Origin: Clostridiales bacterium
GTDB lineage: Bacteria > Bacillota > Clostridia > Oscillospirales > Acutalibacteraceae
Length of the DNA stretch: 64,000 bases
Assembly (NCBI GenBank): GCA_022801595.1
Contig: JAAWSO010000002.1
Span: 124,001-188,000, forward strand
Reading direction: 5' to 3'
A program made the translations under genes and the position numbers. Every line of letters begins with the position of its first letter. Position 1 is the stretch's first letter. The notes below the pieces were generated by a model. The model was not told the DNA's origin. It made no database searches and worked only from the letters and a program-made list of their open reading frames with translations. Below are positions 4,479 to 55,646 of the stretch, piece by piece.

Positions 4479-5476
4479 CCAATTCTCCCTTCCTCAATAA
4501 ACTGTGCCAGTTCCTTGGCGTAGTAGGTAATCAATGCGCTGGCTCCTGCCCGAAATATGCTGACGGCTGTTTCACAGATGGCGTTGACTTCGTCCATCCA
4601 TCCCAGCTTGGCCGCCGCTTTGATCATGGAATATTCGCCGCTGACACTGTAAGCTACGGTTGGGACTGGGAAACGGGAGGATACCTCATACAGCACATCG
4701 AGATAGGAAAGAGCCGGCTTCACCATCAAGAGATCCGCTCCTTGCTCCAAATCTTGCTGTGCTTTTTTGACACCTTCCCGACGGTTGTGGTAGTCCATCT
4801 GATAGGATTTCCGATCCCCAAAGGCCGGCGCGGAATCGGCGGCTTCCCGGAAAGGGCCGTAAAATGCCGAGGCATACTTGACTGCGTAGGATAGGATCGG
4901 GGAAGAAGAAAAGCCGTGCTGATCCAAGGCTTGACGAATGGCGAGAATACGGCCGTCCATCATGTCGGAAGGGGCTACCATATCAGCTCCAGCCTGGACA
5001 TGGGACAGAGCGGTTTTGGCCAATAAAGGCAGAGTTTGGTCGTTGTCTACCGTGTTTCCAGATAGGATTCCACAATGGCCATGTGAAGTGTATTCACACA
5101 AACATACGTCGGTAATATAAAAAAGGTTCGGAAATTCTTGTTTGGCAAGGCGCAGTGCAGTCTGCACAACACCCTGCTCAGACCAGGCTTGACTGCCGCA
5201 AGCATCTTTTTGATTGGGAATTCCAAACAGAAGTACTTGCTGAATGCCCGTCTTGGAGAGCGTTTCCAGTTCATACAGCAATTGATCCGGGGAATAGCGG
5301 TATTGCCCTTCCATAGAGGGGATTTCCTGCCGGATTCCCACGCCCTCCTGAACAAACAGCGGGGCGATCAGCGCCGATTTGGACAGCCGGGTTTCCCGCA
5401 CCATCTGGCGCAAAAGCGAGTTGCCCCGCAGCCGGCGGCTGCGTTGAAGAAAAGGGAATGGATCGGGATGATTCAT
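4475..5476 (-). CDS. hemB: HemB, zinc-type 5-aminolevulinate dehydratase
   Basis: The enzyme condenses two 5-aminolevulinates to porphobilinogen. The active-site lysines are visible in YAVKYASAFYGPFR and LLMVKPALSYLD. The cysteine cluster DVCLCEYTSHGHCG is the metal site of zinc-dependent HemB. I moved the start from the track's 5518 to the ATG at 5476 (MNHPDPFPFLQRSRRLR), giving 333 residues as is normal for the family. GAAAGGAAG precedes it, and it overlaps the cobA/hemD stop as ATGA. Gene order and overlaps indicate co-translation with the flanking hem genes. Confidence 0.95.
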   Translation of the reverse strand: MNHPDPFPFLQRSRRLRGNSLLRQMVRETRLSKSALIAPLFVQEGVGIRQEIPSMEGQYRYSPDQLLYELETLSKTGIQQVLLFGIPNQKDACGSQAWSEQGVVQTALRLAKQEFPNLFYITDVCLCEYTSHGHCGILSGNTVDNDQTLPLLAKTALSHVQAGADMVAPSDMMDGRILAIRQALDQHGFSSSPILSYAVKYASAFYGPFREAADSAPAFGDRKSYQMDYHNRREGVKKAQQDLEQGADLLMVKPALSYLDVLYEVSSRFPVPTVAYSVSGEYSMIKAAAKLGWMDEVNAICETAVSIFRAGASALITYYAKELAQFIEEGRIG

Positions 5477-6987
5477 AGGGCTTCTTCCTTTCTTTGTCTG
5501 TGAAATTCTAGCAAGCAATCCACCAAGGAAGCGATGGTTGCTTGTTTGGCCACCACCGTTTTTATGGCATATTTCCGCGCTTCCTGCGCGGTCTGTTCTC
5601 CAATGCAGATAGCTGTTAGATGTCGGAAGTCCGTCCCAGCCATGGTTTGCACAAAGCCTTTTACCGTCGATGCGCTGGTAAAGGCTACCAGGTCGGTTTT
5701 ACACAACGTCAACGGACGATGGTGAGGGAATTTGATTTGATAAACGGGAACGTCGTCAAAGGCAACTCCAGCATTGGTCAGAGCTTGTGTCAAGCTGGGC
5801 GTGCCTTCCTGAGCGCGGGGAATGCAGACGGTTTCTCCAGGCTGTATGAGAGCCAGCAAAGCTTGGGCCAAAGCTTCCCCATCGTATCGTGTAGGAACAC
5901 AGTCCACCAGGATACCGTGCTGCTCAATCGCCTTCTGGGTAGCAGGGCCAATGGCGGCGAATTTTGCGTGGGCTAGGCGGCGGATATCCACCCGATGCGC
6001 TTGCAAAAGGGAAAAGAAGGCTTCCACCCCGGCCGCGCTGGTAAAGAGCATCCAATGATAGGAAGGTAGGCGGTTCAGCATCCGCTCAATCTGGGGAGTT
6101 GGCTCCAAAGGGATCGTCTGGATGGAAGGCAGTTCCACTACCTCAGCGCCCAGTTCCCGAAGCTGCTGAGAAAGGGCGGAGGCCCGATTACGTGGGCGGG
6201 TGACGATCACCCGGATATCCCCCAGCGGACGGGTAGGAGAGGAAACCCAAGAAAAGGAGGTATGCAGGGCACATACGGAGCCGATGACCAAGACGGCGGG
6301 AGGAGCGATGTTTGCGGCTTTTGCATCAGCCGGAAGCCGCTCCAAGGTGGAATGGACCGCACGCTGGCTAGCAAGAGTTCCGTGCTCCAAAAGGGAAGCG
6401 GGAGTATGGGGGGCCATACCTGCCTGCAGCAATCCTTGGCAGATTTCCGGCAGGGCGTGTACGCCCATAAGGAATACCAAGGTTCCGGGAAGCTTTGCTA
6501 AGGTAGGATAATCCAGGGCAAGAGGACTGTCCTGTTTTTTGTGGCCGGTGATGATGTGCAGGGAAGAACAGAAATCCCGATGTGTGACCGGAATGCCTTG
6601 ATAAGCCGGAACGGCAATGGCGGACGAAACGCCAGGCACTACTTCAAAGGGGATACGGTGCTGAGCCAGCAGCTCCAATTCCTCCCCACCCCGGCCAAAC
6701 AGAAATGGATCGCCGCCTTTGAGTCGAACAACCCGTTTTCCCGCTTTTGCTTTTTCCAGCAAAAGTAGGTTGATCTCCTCTTGTGCCATGTGATGGCGGC
6801 CGACTCGTTTTCCTACCGGAATTTTTTCCGCAGAATCGGGCATCCAGGCCAGAATTCCTTCCCCCACCAAGCTATCGTATAAAATCACTTCCCCTTGTTC
6901 TAAAATCTGTTTGCCCTTCAAAGTCAACAGTCCGCTGTCGCCAGGCCCTGCGCCTACCAGCCAGACTTTTCCATTGGGATATGACAT
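5473..6987 (-). CDS. cobA-hemD: CobA-HemD fusion, uroporphyrinogen III C-methyltransferase and uroporphyrinogen III synthase
   Basis: Residues 1-245 are a uroporphyrinogen III methylase (VGAGPGDSGLLTLKG, RLKGGDPFLFGRGGEE, PVTHRDFCSSLHIITGH), which makes precorrin-2. Residues 250-500 are HemD (VIVTRPRNRASALSQQLRELGAEVVELP, FTSAAGVEAFF, FTSASTVKGFV), which closes hydroxymethylbilane to uroporphyrinogen III. The fusion thus makes uroporphyrinogen III and immediately methylates it toward siroheme and cobalamin. The ATG at 6987 follows AAAAGGAGGG. The 5' end overlaps the hemC 3' end by 34 bases. This fusion is common in Clostridia. Confidence 0.94.
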   Translation of the reverse strand: MSYPNGKVWLVGAGPGDSGLLTLKGKQILEQGEVILYDSLVGEGILAWMPDSAEKIPVGKRVGRHHMAQEEINLLLLEKAKAGKRVVRLKGGDPFLFGRGGEELELLAQHRIPFEVVPGVSSAIAVPAYQGIPVTHRDFCSSLHIITGHKKQDSPLALDYPTLAKLPGTLVFLMGVHALPEICQGLLQAGMAPHTPASLLEHGTLASQRAVHSTLERLPADAKAANIAPPAVLVIGSVCALHTSFSWVSSPTRPLGDIRVIVTRPRNRASALSQQLRELGAEVVELPSIQTIPLEPTPQIERMLNRLPSYHWMLFTSAAGVEAFFSLLQAHRVDIRRLAHAKFAAIGPATQKAIEQHGILVDCVPTRYDGEALAQALLALIQPGETVCIPRAQEGTPSLTQALTNAGVAFDDVPVYQIKFPHHRPLTLCKTDLVAFTSASTVKGFVQTMAGTDFRHLTAICIGEQTAQEARKYAIKTVVAKQATIASLVDCLLEFHRQRKEEAL

Positions 6988-14867: not shown

Positions 14868-14934
14868 AAAGCAATCCAATTCGAAGAAAGGGATTGGATT
14901 TGTCTATCCATTCAGTGACCGTGAAGATAGAAAA

Positions 14935-15008
14935 GCAGGCCGGCAATCTGGCTATGACAGTAACGGACTTGCGTGGGAATTTCACCCAACTTCCCCGGTG
15001 GTTCCTGC
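14935..15008 (-). promoter_or_regulatory. Compact cobalamin riboswitch between cbiK and cbiD
   Basis: The minus strand reads GGGGAAGTTGGGTGAAATTCCC, then AAGTCCGTTACTGTCAT, then AGCCAGATTGCCGGCCTGC. These match in order the conserved core of cobalamin riboswitches: the GGGAA..GGTGAAAxTCC element, the CCGCxACTGT element and the B12 box ending in CCTGC. GCAGG at the 5' edge can pair with the terminal CCTGC as P1. The domain is only about 75 nt, with almost nothing between the ACTGT and B12-box elements, so it resembles the short variant classes. A terminator follows before cbiD. The class assignment is inference. Confidence 0.8.
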
Positions 15009-15014
15009 GTGGAT

Positions 15015-23685: not shown

Positions 23686-23690
23686 CCCTT

Positions 23691-23721
23691 TCCCTCAGGA
23701 TTTTCCTGGGGGGATTTTTTT
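23691..23721 (+). terminator. Terminator of the aro operon
   Basis: TCCCTCAGGA-TTT-TCCTGGGGGGA followed by seven T residues lies just after the tyrA stop. It separates the aro operon from the VTC-DUF4956-CotH unit. Confidence 0.8.
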
Positions 23722-23761: not shown

Positions 23762-23811
23762 TTCAACCAATCTTCACATAAGCACAGTAAACTTTTAACA
23801 GTACTTTAACA
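23762..23811 (+). promoter_or_regulatory. Putative PhoP box: 11-bp-spaced TTAACA-type repeats
   Basis: Five hexamers follow each other with exactly five bases between them: TTCAAC, TTCACA, ACAGTA, TTAACA, TTAACA. In Bacillus subtilis PhoP binds TT(A/C/T)A(C/A/T)A direct repeats with this 11-bp period upstream of phosphate-starvation genes. Four of the five units fit well and the third does not. The array ends 28 bases before the VTC-domain gene. PhoP control is inferred from pattern and from the gene's probable phosphate role. Confidence 0.6.
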
Positions 23812-23839
23812 CATAACCGAATGAAAGGAGACTTGGATC

Positions 23840-24559
23840 ATGTTTGGTTGGAAAGCAAAAACCGGAAGGGAAAAACAAGGGCTCTTGTTCCGCAACGAGC
23901 TTAAGCACACGATCAACCGCTCCGATTATTTGGTGCTGAAACAGAGGCTGAACGCAGTTGCAAAGCCGGATATTCACGCAGAAGACAACGGGGCGTATCA
24001 TATTCGCAGTTTATATTTTGACAGTCCCGATGACAAAGCGTTGCGGGAAAAGCTGGATGGAATCAGTCAGCGGGAAAAATTTCGCATCCGCTACTATAAT
24101 TGGGATTCTTCTTATATCCGATTGGAAAAAAAGAGCAAACGGAATGGGGTGGGGAATAAGCAGTACGCACCGATGACCAAAGAACAATGCGAACAACTGA
24201 TTGCCGGAGAGACCGACTGGATGCTGGATACTGGGATTCCCCTTCTGGTGGAGCTGTATGGAAAGATGAAATTCCAACAACTCCGCCCCAGGACTATCGT
24301 GGATTATACCCGAGAGGCTTATTTGTTCCCAGCTGGCAATGTACGAGTTACTATTGATTCCAACATCAGAACCGGGCTGCAGTCTCTGGATTTTTTCAAT
24401 CCAGATCTTCCGACCGTTCCCACGGGGCATCCAGACAAAATGATCCTGGAGGTCAAATTTGATGATTTTCTGCCGGAGATTATGCAGGATGTGGTTCAGA
24501 CTAAGGAGAGGCGCAGCGCGGCATTTTCGAAATATGCGGTCTGTCGTATGTATGCTTGA
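23840..24559 (+). CDS. VTC-domain protein, polyphosphate polymerase-like
   Basis: The 239 residues make up a single VTC-type triphosphate tunnel domain like the catalytic core of yeast Vtc4, which makes polyphosphate from ATP. Basic and acidic tunnel motifs appear in order: FRNELKHTI, IRSLYFDSPDD, REKFRIRYYNWD, IRLEKKSKRNG, KQYAPMT, RVTIDSNIR, MILEVKFDDFLPE and SKYAVCRM. There is no signal peptide or membrane segment. AAAGGAG precedes the ATG. It heads a three-gene unit with a DUF4956 membrane protein and a CotH-like protein, a combination seen in many Firmicutes. Catalysis in this organism is inference from family. Confidence 0.85.
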   Translation: MFGWKAKTGREKQGLLFRNELKHTINRSDYLVLKQRLNAVAKPDIHAEDNGAYHIRSLYFDSPDDKALREKLDGISQREKFRIRYYNWDSSYIRLEKKSKRNGVGNKQYAPMTKEQCEQLIAGETDWMLDTGIPLLVELYGKMKFQQLRPRTIVDYTREAYLFPAGNVRVTIDSNIRTGLQSLDFFNPDLPTVPTGHPDKMILEVKFDDFLPEIMQDVVQTKERRSAAFSKYAVCRMYA

Positions 24560-24586
24560 TGGTTGTTTGGAAAGGAATGGAACAGT

Positions 24587-25258
24587 ATGACATTTTCGGA
24601 TATTTTTAAGTCGAGTTTTTTAGAGAAGGTTACCACTTTCTCCGTTCTGGATACTGCGATTGCGCTTGCTTTGTCGTTTGTGGTTGGCCTGTTTATTTAT
24701 TTTGTTTATAAAAAAACCTTCAACGGCGTTATGTACGCCTCCAGCTTTGGAATTTCCCTGATCGGCTTGTCTTTAATTACCACGCTGGTAATTCTGGCCG
24801 TCAGTTCCAACGTAATCCTGTCCCTTGGTATGGTGGGCGCCCTGTCCATTGTCCGGTTCCGTACTGCTATCAAAGAACCGTTGGACATTGTGTATTTGTT
24901 TTGGGCCATTGCTTCGGGTATTGTGTTCGGCGCGGGTCTCATTCCATTGGGCGTAATCGGCTCTCTGCTGATCGGAATTGTTTTGTTGGTATTCGGTAAC
25001 TACCGGACCAGTGAGAACCCGTATCTTTTAGTGGTCAACTGTGACACCGAAGAAACCGAGCGTCAAGTGAAGGAAACGGTTCAGAACCAAGTGAAAAAAC
25101 AAATGGTTAAATCAAAAACGGTTTCCTCAAAGGGGATTGAAATGACCATTGAAGTTCGGCTCAAAGAAATGTCTACCGACTTTATCAACCGGATCGCTTC
25201 CATGCCCGGAGTGGGAAATGCCGTTTTGGTCAGCTATCATGGAGATTATATGGGATAA
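24587..25258 (+). CDS. DUF4956 family integral membrane protein
   Basis: About 223 residues, with the ATG at 24587 chosen over the track's TTG-type start because AAAGGA lies ten bases before it. The first 140 residues hold roughly four hydrophobic segments (TAIALALSFVVGLFIYFVY, ISLIGLSLITTLVILAVSS, VIFGAGLIPLGVIGSLLIGIVLLVFG). SLGMVGALSIVRFRTAIKEPLDIVYLFWAIA is the conserved family core. A soluble C-terminal tail of about 75 residues follows. The function is unknown. Its fixed place between VTC and CotH genes suggests it is the membrane partner of the VTC protein, perhaps a channel or anchor. Confidence 0.85.
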   Translation: MTFSDIFKSSFLEKVTTFSVLDTAIALALSFVVGLFIYFVYKKTFNGVMYASSFGISLIGLSLITTLVILAVSSNVILSLGMVGALSIVRFRTAIKEPLDIVYLFWAIASGIVFGAGLIPLGVIGSLLIGIVLLVFGNYRTSENPYLLVVNCDTEETERQVKETVQNQVKKQMVKSKTVSSKGIEMTIEVRLKEMSTDFINRIASMPGVGNAVLVSYHGDYMG

Positions 25259-25269
25259 GGGGGAGCCCC

Positions 25270-27579
25270 ATGATTACCAACCAATATCTGAATCGGATTA
25301 CTGCTGTGCTGATGGCTGTAGCAGTCGTGATAACAGGAACCGTTTGGATCTGGACCCAATCCGATGGCTTTGTTTCCACCGGCACCCATTTTGATTATGA
25401 AGGCAGTTTGTTTGGTGAAAATACCGTGGCTACAATCGACATCCAGGTAGAGAAAACAGATTGGGAGGACTTGCTGGCTAACGCCACTGATAAGGAGTAT
25501 ATTTCGGCGGACATCACCATCAATGGAAAAACGGTTTCCAATGTTGGAATCCGTGCCAAGGGAAATACAAGCTTGAGTCAGGTGGCCATTGACGACACCA
25601 CCGACCGCTATAGCTTTAAGGTGGAATTTGACCATTACATCACGGATCAAACCTACGACGGTTTGGATAAGCTGGCACTGAACAATATCATTAGTGATGC
25701 TACTTATATGAAGGAATATTTATCCTATCAAATGCTGGAGAGCATTGGGGTCGCGACCCCGCTCTATGGGTTCGCCAATATTACTGTAAACGGCGAGCCG
25801 TGGGGCCTCTATTTCAGTGTGGAAGTGTTGGAAGAATCCTTTGCCCAGCGGAACTATGGCAGCGATTACGGAAAACTATATAAGCCGGAAAGCGACATGG
25901 CCGGCGGGGGCAGAGGGCCACAGGAAGCGGAGGGATCAGGGGAGAAGCGTCAACAAGCGGAGTTAGCTTCTTTGACCGTTTCCGAAGGAGCGGGTTCCCA
26001 GGAAACCGATGTTGCAAAGCTGGAACCGGAACATTCCGCATGGGAGAACCCTGCCGATGTGCAAGCCGACGAACCGCGGCCCACATCCAGTAGTGTTGAG
26101 GGGACACAGGAAGGGACGGCTAGTCCGCCTGACGCAAATGGGTCCCCAGGAATGCAGGGAGGAGGACCCGGTCAGGGTGGAGGTTTTGGCGGTGGTTTCT
26201 CCTTATCGGGAGGCAGTGATTTGGCTTTTATCGACAGGAACCCAAGCAGCTACCCAGACATTTTTGATAACGCGGTATTTGACGTGACAGAAGCGGACAA
26301 ACAGAAGGTTGTAGACGCTCTGGAGCATCTGGACGCTGGCGAGGATTTGGAACATTACTTTGATGTCGATGAAATTCTCCGTTATTTTGCCGCCAATACC
26401 GCCATGGTCAACCTGGACAGCTATGTGGGGATGATGCAGCACAATTATTATTTATACGAGAAGGATGGAAAAATTTCCATTTTGCCTTGGGACTACAATC
26501 TATCTTTTGGCGCATTCCAATCAGGAAGTGCATCAGATGCGGTCAATTTTCCCATTGACACTCCCGTGGCTTCCAATATCGAAATGGAAGATCGGCCGCT
26601 ATTGAATCAGTTGCTGGCAGTGGACGAATACAAAGAAAAGTATCACCAGTATTTGCAGGAAATCGTGGCCAACTATTTTGACAGTGGGCTGTTTGAATTG
26701 ACCATTACCAAATTAAACGCCTTGCTATCCTCTTATGTCAGGGAGGATGCCACTGCATTTTATACCTACGAGGAATATCAGGCTGCCATCGAGGAGCTGA
26801 AAGAATATGGTGCATTGCGTGCCGAGAGCATTAGGGGGCAGTTGGACGGATCTATCCCTTCTACCTGGGCAGGACAGCAGGAAGATTCTTCTGCTTTGGT
26901 GGACGCTTCTAGTGTCGATCTCAATGTTATGGGAACCCAGGGGGGAGGGAATATGGGCGGCTGGCCTGGAGGGCAGCGGAATGAGAATGTTCCTGCCTGG
27001 TCAGGCCAGGAAAACAATCGCAATCCATCTTCCGAATCCAGCGGACCGGGTGAAGCAGGGAAAACTTCCGAAGAAGCTCCCACTGGGACACCCCAAACCT
27101 CCGCTGAGGGAACAGACGCTCGAACTGGCGTGCCATCGGAACCCCAAGCGGGGAACGCGAGTGGCACACCAAACTCCTTGGGAGATTCTTCCCACGATAC
27201 GTCTTCCAGTTCGATAGAACCCAGTGTCGGAGGTGCTCCTTCCGTTCCGCGAGGGGGCAATCGTCCAAGTCGACAAGATATGGGGTTTCATCTGGATGAA
27301 GAGACTCTCCAGCAGGTTATGACGATCCTCCAGTCGGGAGGAACCGGGCAGGAGTTGACCCAGGAACAAAACGATCAGCTTTTAGCCCTGGGAATCACGG
27401 AGGAACAAATCCAGACCATACAGGATTCCTTTGGAAACCGGCACATGCCTGGCATGGATTCCTCCAGTGGCCAAACGGCGATTTCTGCGCAAGCGTGGTG
27501 GATTCTTGGGGGATGCGTTGCCGCAATGGCAGCCGGATTACTGTTTGTGATCTTCTTCCGCCGCAGACGCTATCATTAA
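25270..27579 (+). CDS. CotH-kinase family membrane protein with long low-complexity regions
   Basis: The N terminus has one hydrophobic segment (about residues 9-28) and the C terminus another (about 740-762) followed by RRRRYH, so most of the chain should be outside the cell. The CotH domain is split. VGIRAKGNTSLSQ, YSFKVEFD, LALNNIISDATYMKEYLSYQML and PWGLYFSVEVLEE come first. After a Gly/Ser/Pro/Glu-rich insert (about 215-320) comes ILPWDYNLSFGAF, with the probable metal-binding aspartate. A second low-complexity stretch lies at about 560-670. CotH of Bacillus is a spore-coat protein kinase. Substrate and role here are unknown. The inserts have a different base and residue composition from the rest. 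Confidence 0.82.
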   Translation: MITNQYLNRITAVLMAVAVVITGTVWIWTQSDGFVSTGTHFDYEGSLFGENTVATIDIQVEKTDWEDLLANATDKEYISADITINGKTVSNVGIRAKGNTSLSQVAIDDTTDRYSFKVEFDHYITDQTYDGLDKLALNNIISDATYMKEYLSYQMLESIGVATPLYGFANITVNGEPWGLYFSVEVLEESFAQRNYGSDYGKLYKPESDMAGGGRGPQEAEGSGEKRQQAELASLTVSEGAGSQETDVAKLEPEHSAWENPADVQADEPRPTSSSVEGTQEGTASPPDANGSPGMQGGGPGQGGGFGGGFSLSGGSDLAFIDRNPSSYPDIFDNAVFDVTEADKQKVVDALEHLDAGEDLEHYFDVDEILRYFAANTAMVNLDSYVGMMQHNYYLYEKDGKISILPWDYNLSFGAFQSGSASDAVNFPIDTPVASNIEMEDRPLLNQLLAVDEYKEKYHQYLQEIVANYFDSGLFELTITKLNALLSSYVREDATAFYTYEEYQAAIEELKEYGALRAESIRGQLDGSIPSTWAGQQEDSSALVDASSVDLNVMGTQGGGNMGGWPGGQRNENVPAWSGQENNRNPSSESSGPGEAGKTSEEAPTGTPQTSAEGTDARTGVPSEPQAGNASGTPNSLGDSSHDTSSSSIEPSVGGAPSVPRGGNRPSRQDMGFHLDEETLQQVMTILQSGGTGQELTQEQNDQLLALGITEEQIQTIQDSFGNRHMPGMDSSSGQTAISAQAWWILGGCVAAMAAGLLFVIFFRRRRYH

Positions 27580-38736: not shown

Positions 38737-38992
38737 TTGTCGATTAGTTACATTTTATATAGTGTTTCAGGAAAAAATTAACCAATTATATGAAAGTTCC
38801 CGTAGAAAATGGATATTAATATTTCAATTCGCTTAAGGATTTGTTTCCAGTGTAGGGTGGAAGATATTGATAGAAAATCAGAAGCTATGATTCGATGATT
38901 AAGATTTTGGGTTTGTTTCCTACCATATAATTTATCATAATTTTATCAAAAAGTCTATATATCGTCTTATTAATTGGCTGAAAAAATTTACA
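38737..38992. other. AT-rich noncoding stretch between two XRE genes
   Basis: About 250 very AT-rich bases without a convincing open frame on either strand. The track ORF at 38885-39112 minus runs through the next gene and looks like a shadow. It probably carries promoter elements for the gene at 38993. Confidence 0.4.
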
Positions 38993-55415: not shown

Positions 55416-55646
55416 GCAAGACTGCAATAGATATGCGTTGAAGCGGGAGGTTGCGGCCATTTTGGCTGGTTTTTCCGTGGAGTATGTCCGATTTTAAACC
55501 GGGCGAAAGAATATTTGAGTGTATGGCGAAAACATGCGCAATTGCGTGTGTTGACGTATTTTGAGCAAAAATGCGTTGCTGCTGCCATGCCTTAGACGTC
55601 TTTTCGAGACCTGCCCGGATCTGCTTTTTAGCAAGTCCGGTTTTTT
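55416..55646 (+). promoter_or_regulatory. S10 operon leader ending in an attenuator-like terminator
   Basis: The leader has no coding frame. CCGGA...CTGCT and AGCAAG..TCCGG form a hairpin at 55615-55640, directly followed by TTTTTT. A terminator in the 5' leader, 80 bases before rpsJ, implies attenuation. Ribosomal protein L4 controls S10 operons through leaders in other bacteria; whether L4 acts here is inference. Confidence 0.6.

Follow-up and report, generated by a model that had tools for sequence, protein, structure and literature searches.

The closest described counterparts of the promoter considered here are controlled by two-component systems (TCSs). In streptococci, CiaRH governs htrA and small RNAs via an 11-bp direct repeat at a fixed distance to the -10 element, the CiaR site being TTTAAG-N5-TTTAAG with 10 bp to the -10 (PMC3091779), and in Bacillus CssRS is linked to and controls htrA (PMC12826053). 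PhoPR of B. subtilis likewise uses OmpR-family tandem sites with an 11-bp period. With respect to the genes themselves, Gram-positive Pel clusters carry accessory genes in the order cotH-PPP-DUF4956(-DUF4832) (Whitfield 2020, PMC7112168). Here, the region upstream of a VTC-DUF4956-CotH operon is analysed, which is situated at positions 23,762 to 27,579 of a 64,000-nt stretch (hereafter the window) of a Clostridiales bacterium (assembly GCA_022801595.1, contig JAAWSO010000002.1, positions 124,001 to 188,000, forward strand).

The locus resembles CiaRH and CssRS targets in its repeats or in its linkage to htrA, but the regulator class that we propose for it, represented by the response regulator (RR) RR_L035 of the same genome, has the recognition helix RTLDTHIKLLRKSL and the site TCAC-N7-TCACA, and its predicted target set includes VTC-DUF4956-CotH. 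PhoPR-type sites are also present in this genome, the pst promoters of which fit the B. subtilis pattern, whereas the conserved repeats upstream of VTC are TTCA(A/C) and TCACA and not TTAACA. The three protein families of the Pel accessory genes occur here side by side as well, but no pel genes are adjacent, and a regulator is not described there (PMC7112168). The yeast VTC complex (Vtc4) shares the polymerase-domain fold and basic tunnel residues; in contrast to it, the protein of the window lacks an SPX or fused membrane domain, and the membrane part is a separate DUF4956 protein. In the literature searched, neither a paper on the control or role of VTC-DUF4956-CotH nor its description as a CiaRH target was found.

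Conserved Repeats Upstream of the VTC Gene

The region 23762-23793 is, in our judgement and with good confidence, an activator-dependent promoter of VTC-DUF4956-CotH, the likely activator being RR_L035 together with its neighbouring histidine kinase (HK). The original prediction had described five hexamers in front of the VTC gene as one PhoP-box array. All five are present, namely TTCAAC (23762), TTCACA (23773), ACAGTA (23784), TTAACA (23795), and TTAACA (23806), with a period of exactly 11 and with the final base (23811) 28 bases 5' of the VTC start codon at 23840. They do not form a single array, since ACAGTA fits no class and the TTAACA pair is not conserved. A tandem direct-repeat site of the OmpR/PhoB-family response regulator type with period 11 does precede the operon, but the part of it that is kept in relatives is no Pho box.

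Only hexamers 1 and 2 are retained in the alignment of the VTC upstream regions of the window (TTCAACCAATCTTCACA-N9-TAAACT), of the sister genome G001 (TTCAAAAAACGGTCACA-N9-TACAAT), whose VTC protein is 70% identical, and of G043 (TTCAATCAATCCTCAAA-N9-TATCAT). The 9-bp spacing between repeat and -10 is identical in the VTC promoters of G001, G043, and L159 and in the RR and HtrA promoters described below. Scored with the matrix described below, for which other genomes served as training set, both copies lie far above chance; they are conserved in the sister genome, and judged by sequence only these two behave as a functional site. The prephenate dehydrogenase gene that precedes VTC is, by inspection, closed by a terminator-like hairpin and its T run (about 23687-23721), and the operon therefore probably begins with VTC.

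A Promoter Class Shared with RR_L035 and htrA

The promoter class TCAC-N7-TCACA-N9-TANAAT is found in front of the RR_L035/HK genes, their orthologues, and htrA, in all relatives from the genus that were examined; the class, its distribution, and the gene linkage can be read directly from the genomes. RR_L035 (G000:C42:14187-14861) is followed by a 490-amino-acid (aa) histidine kinase. Its promoter, TCACCCAATCTTCACA-N9-TAAAAT, has the 12-mer CCAATCTTCACA in common with the VTC promoter, and the same promoter is situated upstream of the RR_L035 orthologues in G001, G002, G003, G004, G005, G016, G036, and G059. In case of htrA, the site occurs in the own genome (TCACATCATGGTCACA-N9-CATAAT), G001-G005, G036, G043, and L201. 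No such htrA site was found in G007, G012, G022, and G033, which have no RR orthologue at E <= 1e-60.

The training set of a position weight matrix (PWM) consisted of promoters of RR and htrA genes from other genomes and contained neither the own genome nor any VTC promoter. In the window, the site at 23763 ranks first with 20.8 bits, followed by 11.2 for the next match, while the maximum of 30 random Markov windows is 17.2. VTC promoters outside the training set score about 20.8-20.9 (own), 20.3 (G001), 22.8 (L159), and 14.9 (G043). The site is kept before VTC in the sister genome and in Ruminiclostridium papyrosolvens.

The RR/HK clade of RR_L035 (node support 0.996) adjoins VTC in L159, L201, and G013. 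In R. papyrosolvens C7 (L159) the order is RR-HK, one gene, and VTC-DUF4956-CotH, in L201 it is HtrA-RR-HK-VTC-DUF4956-CotH, and in G013 VTC-DUF4956-CotH-RR-HK. This linkage in three genomes with differing gene orders supports the assignment of the regulator. Among the NCBIfam models listed, none reached the cut-off for RR_L035, and its recognition helix is unlike that of CiaR. A second HtrA gene follows another OmpR-type regulator/kinase pair, RR_L033 (G000:C18:22992-27351), so a second HtrA-linked TCS exists in the genome.

Several observations weigh against this assignment. The -10 of the window, TAAACT, is imperfect. No such site was found near the VTC genes of G003, G036, G059, and G013 despite the presence of the RR; those of G003 and G013 sit within longer same-strand gene runs, which would explain these two of the four cases. 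The VTC upstream region of L201 matches in the repeats only, with no good -10, no site could be located upstream of the G043 RR gene, and a weak htrA site is present in G014, where no RR orthologue was found. Furthermore, because members of the OmpR family have similar sites, another OmpR-type regulator of the genome could bind the VTC site.

With one mismatch allowed, the wide pattern TCA-N8-TCACA-N9-TANNNT yields 31 matches compared to 17 for a control pattern, and therefore single matches lacking conservation were not counted as targets. Other candidate targets are the gene of a DUF218 membrane protein (C8:43294, PF02698) and a putative small RNA at G000:C65:150091-150270 (L105/L237), where an RR_L035-type site and a -10 precede an ORF-free stretch (ORF, open reading frame) of ~140 nt ending in a terminator. 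Its counterpart in the sister genome (G001:C119:7912-8036, L238) is 73% conserved including the site. No Rfam match was obtained for this candidate, which is comparable with the CiaR small RNAs.

Pho Boxes and the Phosphate Question

The genome encodes PhoPR (L050, C10 locus), so a lack of this system can not be held against the original prediction of phosphate-responsive control. The gene order is pstS-pstS-pstC-pstA-pstB-phoU-phoP-phoR, with names assigned by sequence similarity and gene order. The pstS2 promoter contains a clean TTAACA box (TTAACGCTAAT TTAACA, 9 bp, TACACT), the 11-bp repeats of the pstS1 promoter read CTAACC, CTAACA, ATAAAA, ATAACT, and TTAACA, and an example from the relatives is the G002 pst promoter, TTAACATAGATTTAACA-N9-TAAAAT. 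Hence PhoP and its boxes exist in the own genome and in relatives, in the layout repeats, 9 bp, and -10. Pho boxes of pst promoters follow TTAAC(G/A)-N5-TTAACA-N9 to the -10, unlike the conserved VTC site. The two tandem pstS genes each possess an own 11-bp-repeat promoter, differing in strictness (L050, G000:C10, reverse strand 4646-6789).

Considering the repeats alone, the TTAACA-N5-TTAACA pair matches perfectly and, with 14.5, ranks second among the Pho repeats of the window. However, it lies past the conserved -10 and not upstream of a -10 as in the pst promoters, and with the -10 included its score drops to 2.8 (rank 44), compared to 26.6 for the own pstS2 promoter. The pair has no counterpart in the sister genome G001, and TTWACA pairs occur in only 3 out of 79 VTC upstream regions. 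In the 2.2-Mb genome, TTNACA-N5-TTNACA was counted 4 times versus 6 for the reversed control pattern, i.e., such pairs are at chance level genome-wide. Position, conservation, and genome-wide counts thus leave phosphate-responsive control unsupported, and the pair is probably incidental. Within the window, the Pho-like matrix scores highest at a period-11 direct repeat, 38932-38963 (+), TTATCATAATTTTATCA, followed by a TATATA-like stretch and located 5' of an ORF that looks like a helix-turn-helix protein gene.

It is conceivable that RR_L035 activates the operon while PhoP, bound to the TTAACA pair over the start, represses or modulates it in this species alone. The overlap of the pair with the predicted start and its helical register with the conserved repeats would suit this arrangement, but we consider it very unlikely given the missing pair in the sister genome and the control-level frequency of such pairs. 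That phosphorylated PhoP alone activates the operon from the TTAACA repeats under phosphate limitation is highly improbable: a perfect repeat match and a pst-phoU-phoP-phoR locus with TTAACA-type promoters are available, but the position, conservation, and counts given above reject PhoP as the regulator.

Promoter Grammar across VTC Loci

A set of 80 named loci provided 79 regions upstream of VTC, in which we looked for hexamers of 5/6 or higher identity spaced at period 11 and, 9 bp further on, a -10. This grammar is present in 42-43 of the 79, whereas neighbouring periods gave 0-10, control genes 17 out of 459, and shuffled sequences a mean of 2.8; due to the shared ancestry of the VTC loci, the 43 cases can not be counted as independent of each other. 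Most of the hexamers resemble TTCAGC or TTAAGG. A dedicated TCS adjoins VTC, with matching repeats, in about one third of the 80 loci, and in most pairs the RR helix EVYVGFLRKKL goes along with TTCAGC and EVYISFLRKKL with TTAAGG. The latter helix is close to that of CiaR (VVEVYVSKVRKKL). Since site and helix of the own genome differ from those of the dedicated systems, the clade of the window appears to rely on another regulator, the geometry of the site being unchanged.

These dedicated systems, together with the nine OmpR-type regulators that have full-length matches in the own genome, raise the question whether another OmpR-family regulator, e.g., one descended from the dedicated CiaR-like regulator of VTC in other clostridia, acts on the operon. 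This is extremely doubtful, as no own RR shares more than about 33-39% identity with the dedicated RRs, the own site is similar to RR_L035 promoters and not to TTCAGC or TTAAGG, and the tree places the dedicated and RR_L035 clades apart.

Genes and Proteins of the Operon

The VTC-DUF4956-CotH unit named in the original prediction is an intact three-gene operon, with all three domains detected by profile search (Table 1).

Table 1. Features of the VTC-DUF4956-CotH locus (window coordinates).
Feature	Position	Strand	Evidence or remark
Repeat 1 TTCAAC of the predicted response-regulator operator	23762..23767	+	TTCAAA in G001 and TTCAAT in G043, at equal distance to the -10
Repeat 2 TTCACA of the predicted operator, 11 bp past repeat 1	23773..23778	+	12-mer, matrix score
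Predicted -10 TAAACT, 9 bp past repeat 2	23788..23793	+	Spacing common to VTC, RR, and HtrA promoters
TTAACA-N5-TTAACA pair, best PhoP-box match	23795..23811	+	About -5 to +12 of predicted start
Shine-Dalgarno AAAGGAG of the VTC gene	23824..23830	+	Sequence
VTC-domain gene, 239 aa, predicted cytosolic polyphosphate polymerase	23840..24559	+	PF09359, E=3e-44
DUF4956 gene, 223 aa from ATG 24587	24587..25258	+	PF16316, E=5.5e-12
CotH kinase-like protein, 769 aa	25270..27579	+	PF08757, E=6e-63

The VTC model (predicted local distance difference test, pLDDT, 89) has a triphosphate-tunnel fold with Vtc4 as the best match in the PDB (3g3r, E=8e-14, Foldseek), and a profile match to Vtc4 was obtained as well (3g3q, E=5.5e-5). 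K22, R82, R84, K98, R158, R169, E204, K206, S230, and K231 are invariant in 30 homologues. The equivalence of the basic-tunnel and metal-binding Glu residues to those of Vtc4 is in part presumed, the sequence alignment ending before E204.

In case of DUF4956, the start at 24587 is likelier than that at 24563 because homologues begin with MTFSDIFK. About five membrane helices and a C-terminal MgtC-like ACT domain (2lqj) are predicted (AlphaFold2 model, pLDDT 78.9); nearly all matches of the fold search cover residues 140-223 only, and none was obtained for the membrane part, a result that does not argue against its having a known fold. For the CotH protein, spore coat protein H (5jd9, E=6.8e-10) was matched, and the alignment brings the catalytic and metal motifs, HNYxLY and PWDY, into register. 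Due to the N- and C-terminal membrane segments seen by inspection, its catalytic domain is probably extracellular.

Polyphosphate synthesis or surface phosphorylation by the products of the operon is plausible. The genome also encodes PPK1 (C29:30093), upstream of which no site of either the RR_L035 or the Pho type was found. VTC as the sole polyphosphate source is thus rejected, and VTC may serve a membrane or surface role rather than bulk polyphosphate synthesis. The operon is flanked by the prephenate dehydrogenase gene and a methionine-synthase-like gene, with no pel genes next to it. Elsewhere in the window, Rfam matches were obtained for an S10-Clostridia ribosomal leader (55430-55506, +) and an AdoCbl-II riboswitch (14933-15010, -).

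Proposed Mechanism and Biological Role

Based on the presence of the site before the RR/HK genes themselves, htrA, the DUF218 gene, and the candidate small RNA, the RR_L035 system resembles the envelope- and secretion-stress systems CiaRH and CssRS, and the linkage to htrA argues for envelope stress as the sensor signal. Envelope-stress control of VTC-DUF4956-CotH therefore appears likelier than phosphate control. We infer that, once the kinase is active, two RR molecules would occupy the direct repeats of 11 bp from the same side of the DNA, and that the bound RR would replace the -35 and bring the polymerase to TAAACT. Expression of the operon would then supply a VTC polymerase that synthesizes polyphosphate in the cytosol, a partner protein in the membrane, and a CotH kinase outside the cell.

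It is tempting to speculate, unlikely as we consider it, that VTC and DUF4956 constitute a phosphate relay across the membrane. Cytosolic polyphosphate would be passed outside via DUF4956, where CotH, having no ATP there, would use it or its product to phosphorylate surface proteins, and envelope-stress TCSs would switch the unit on to phosphorylate a damaged surface.

The VTC-DUF4956-CotH unit occurs widely among clostridia of the gut and rumen. Its link to HtrA-controlling and CiaR-like TCSs suggests a testable inducer, i.e., envelope or secretion stress and not phosphate starvation, and the simple promoter grammar may be used to find co-regulated genes.

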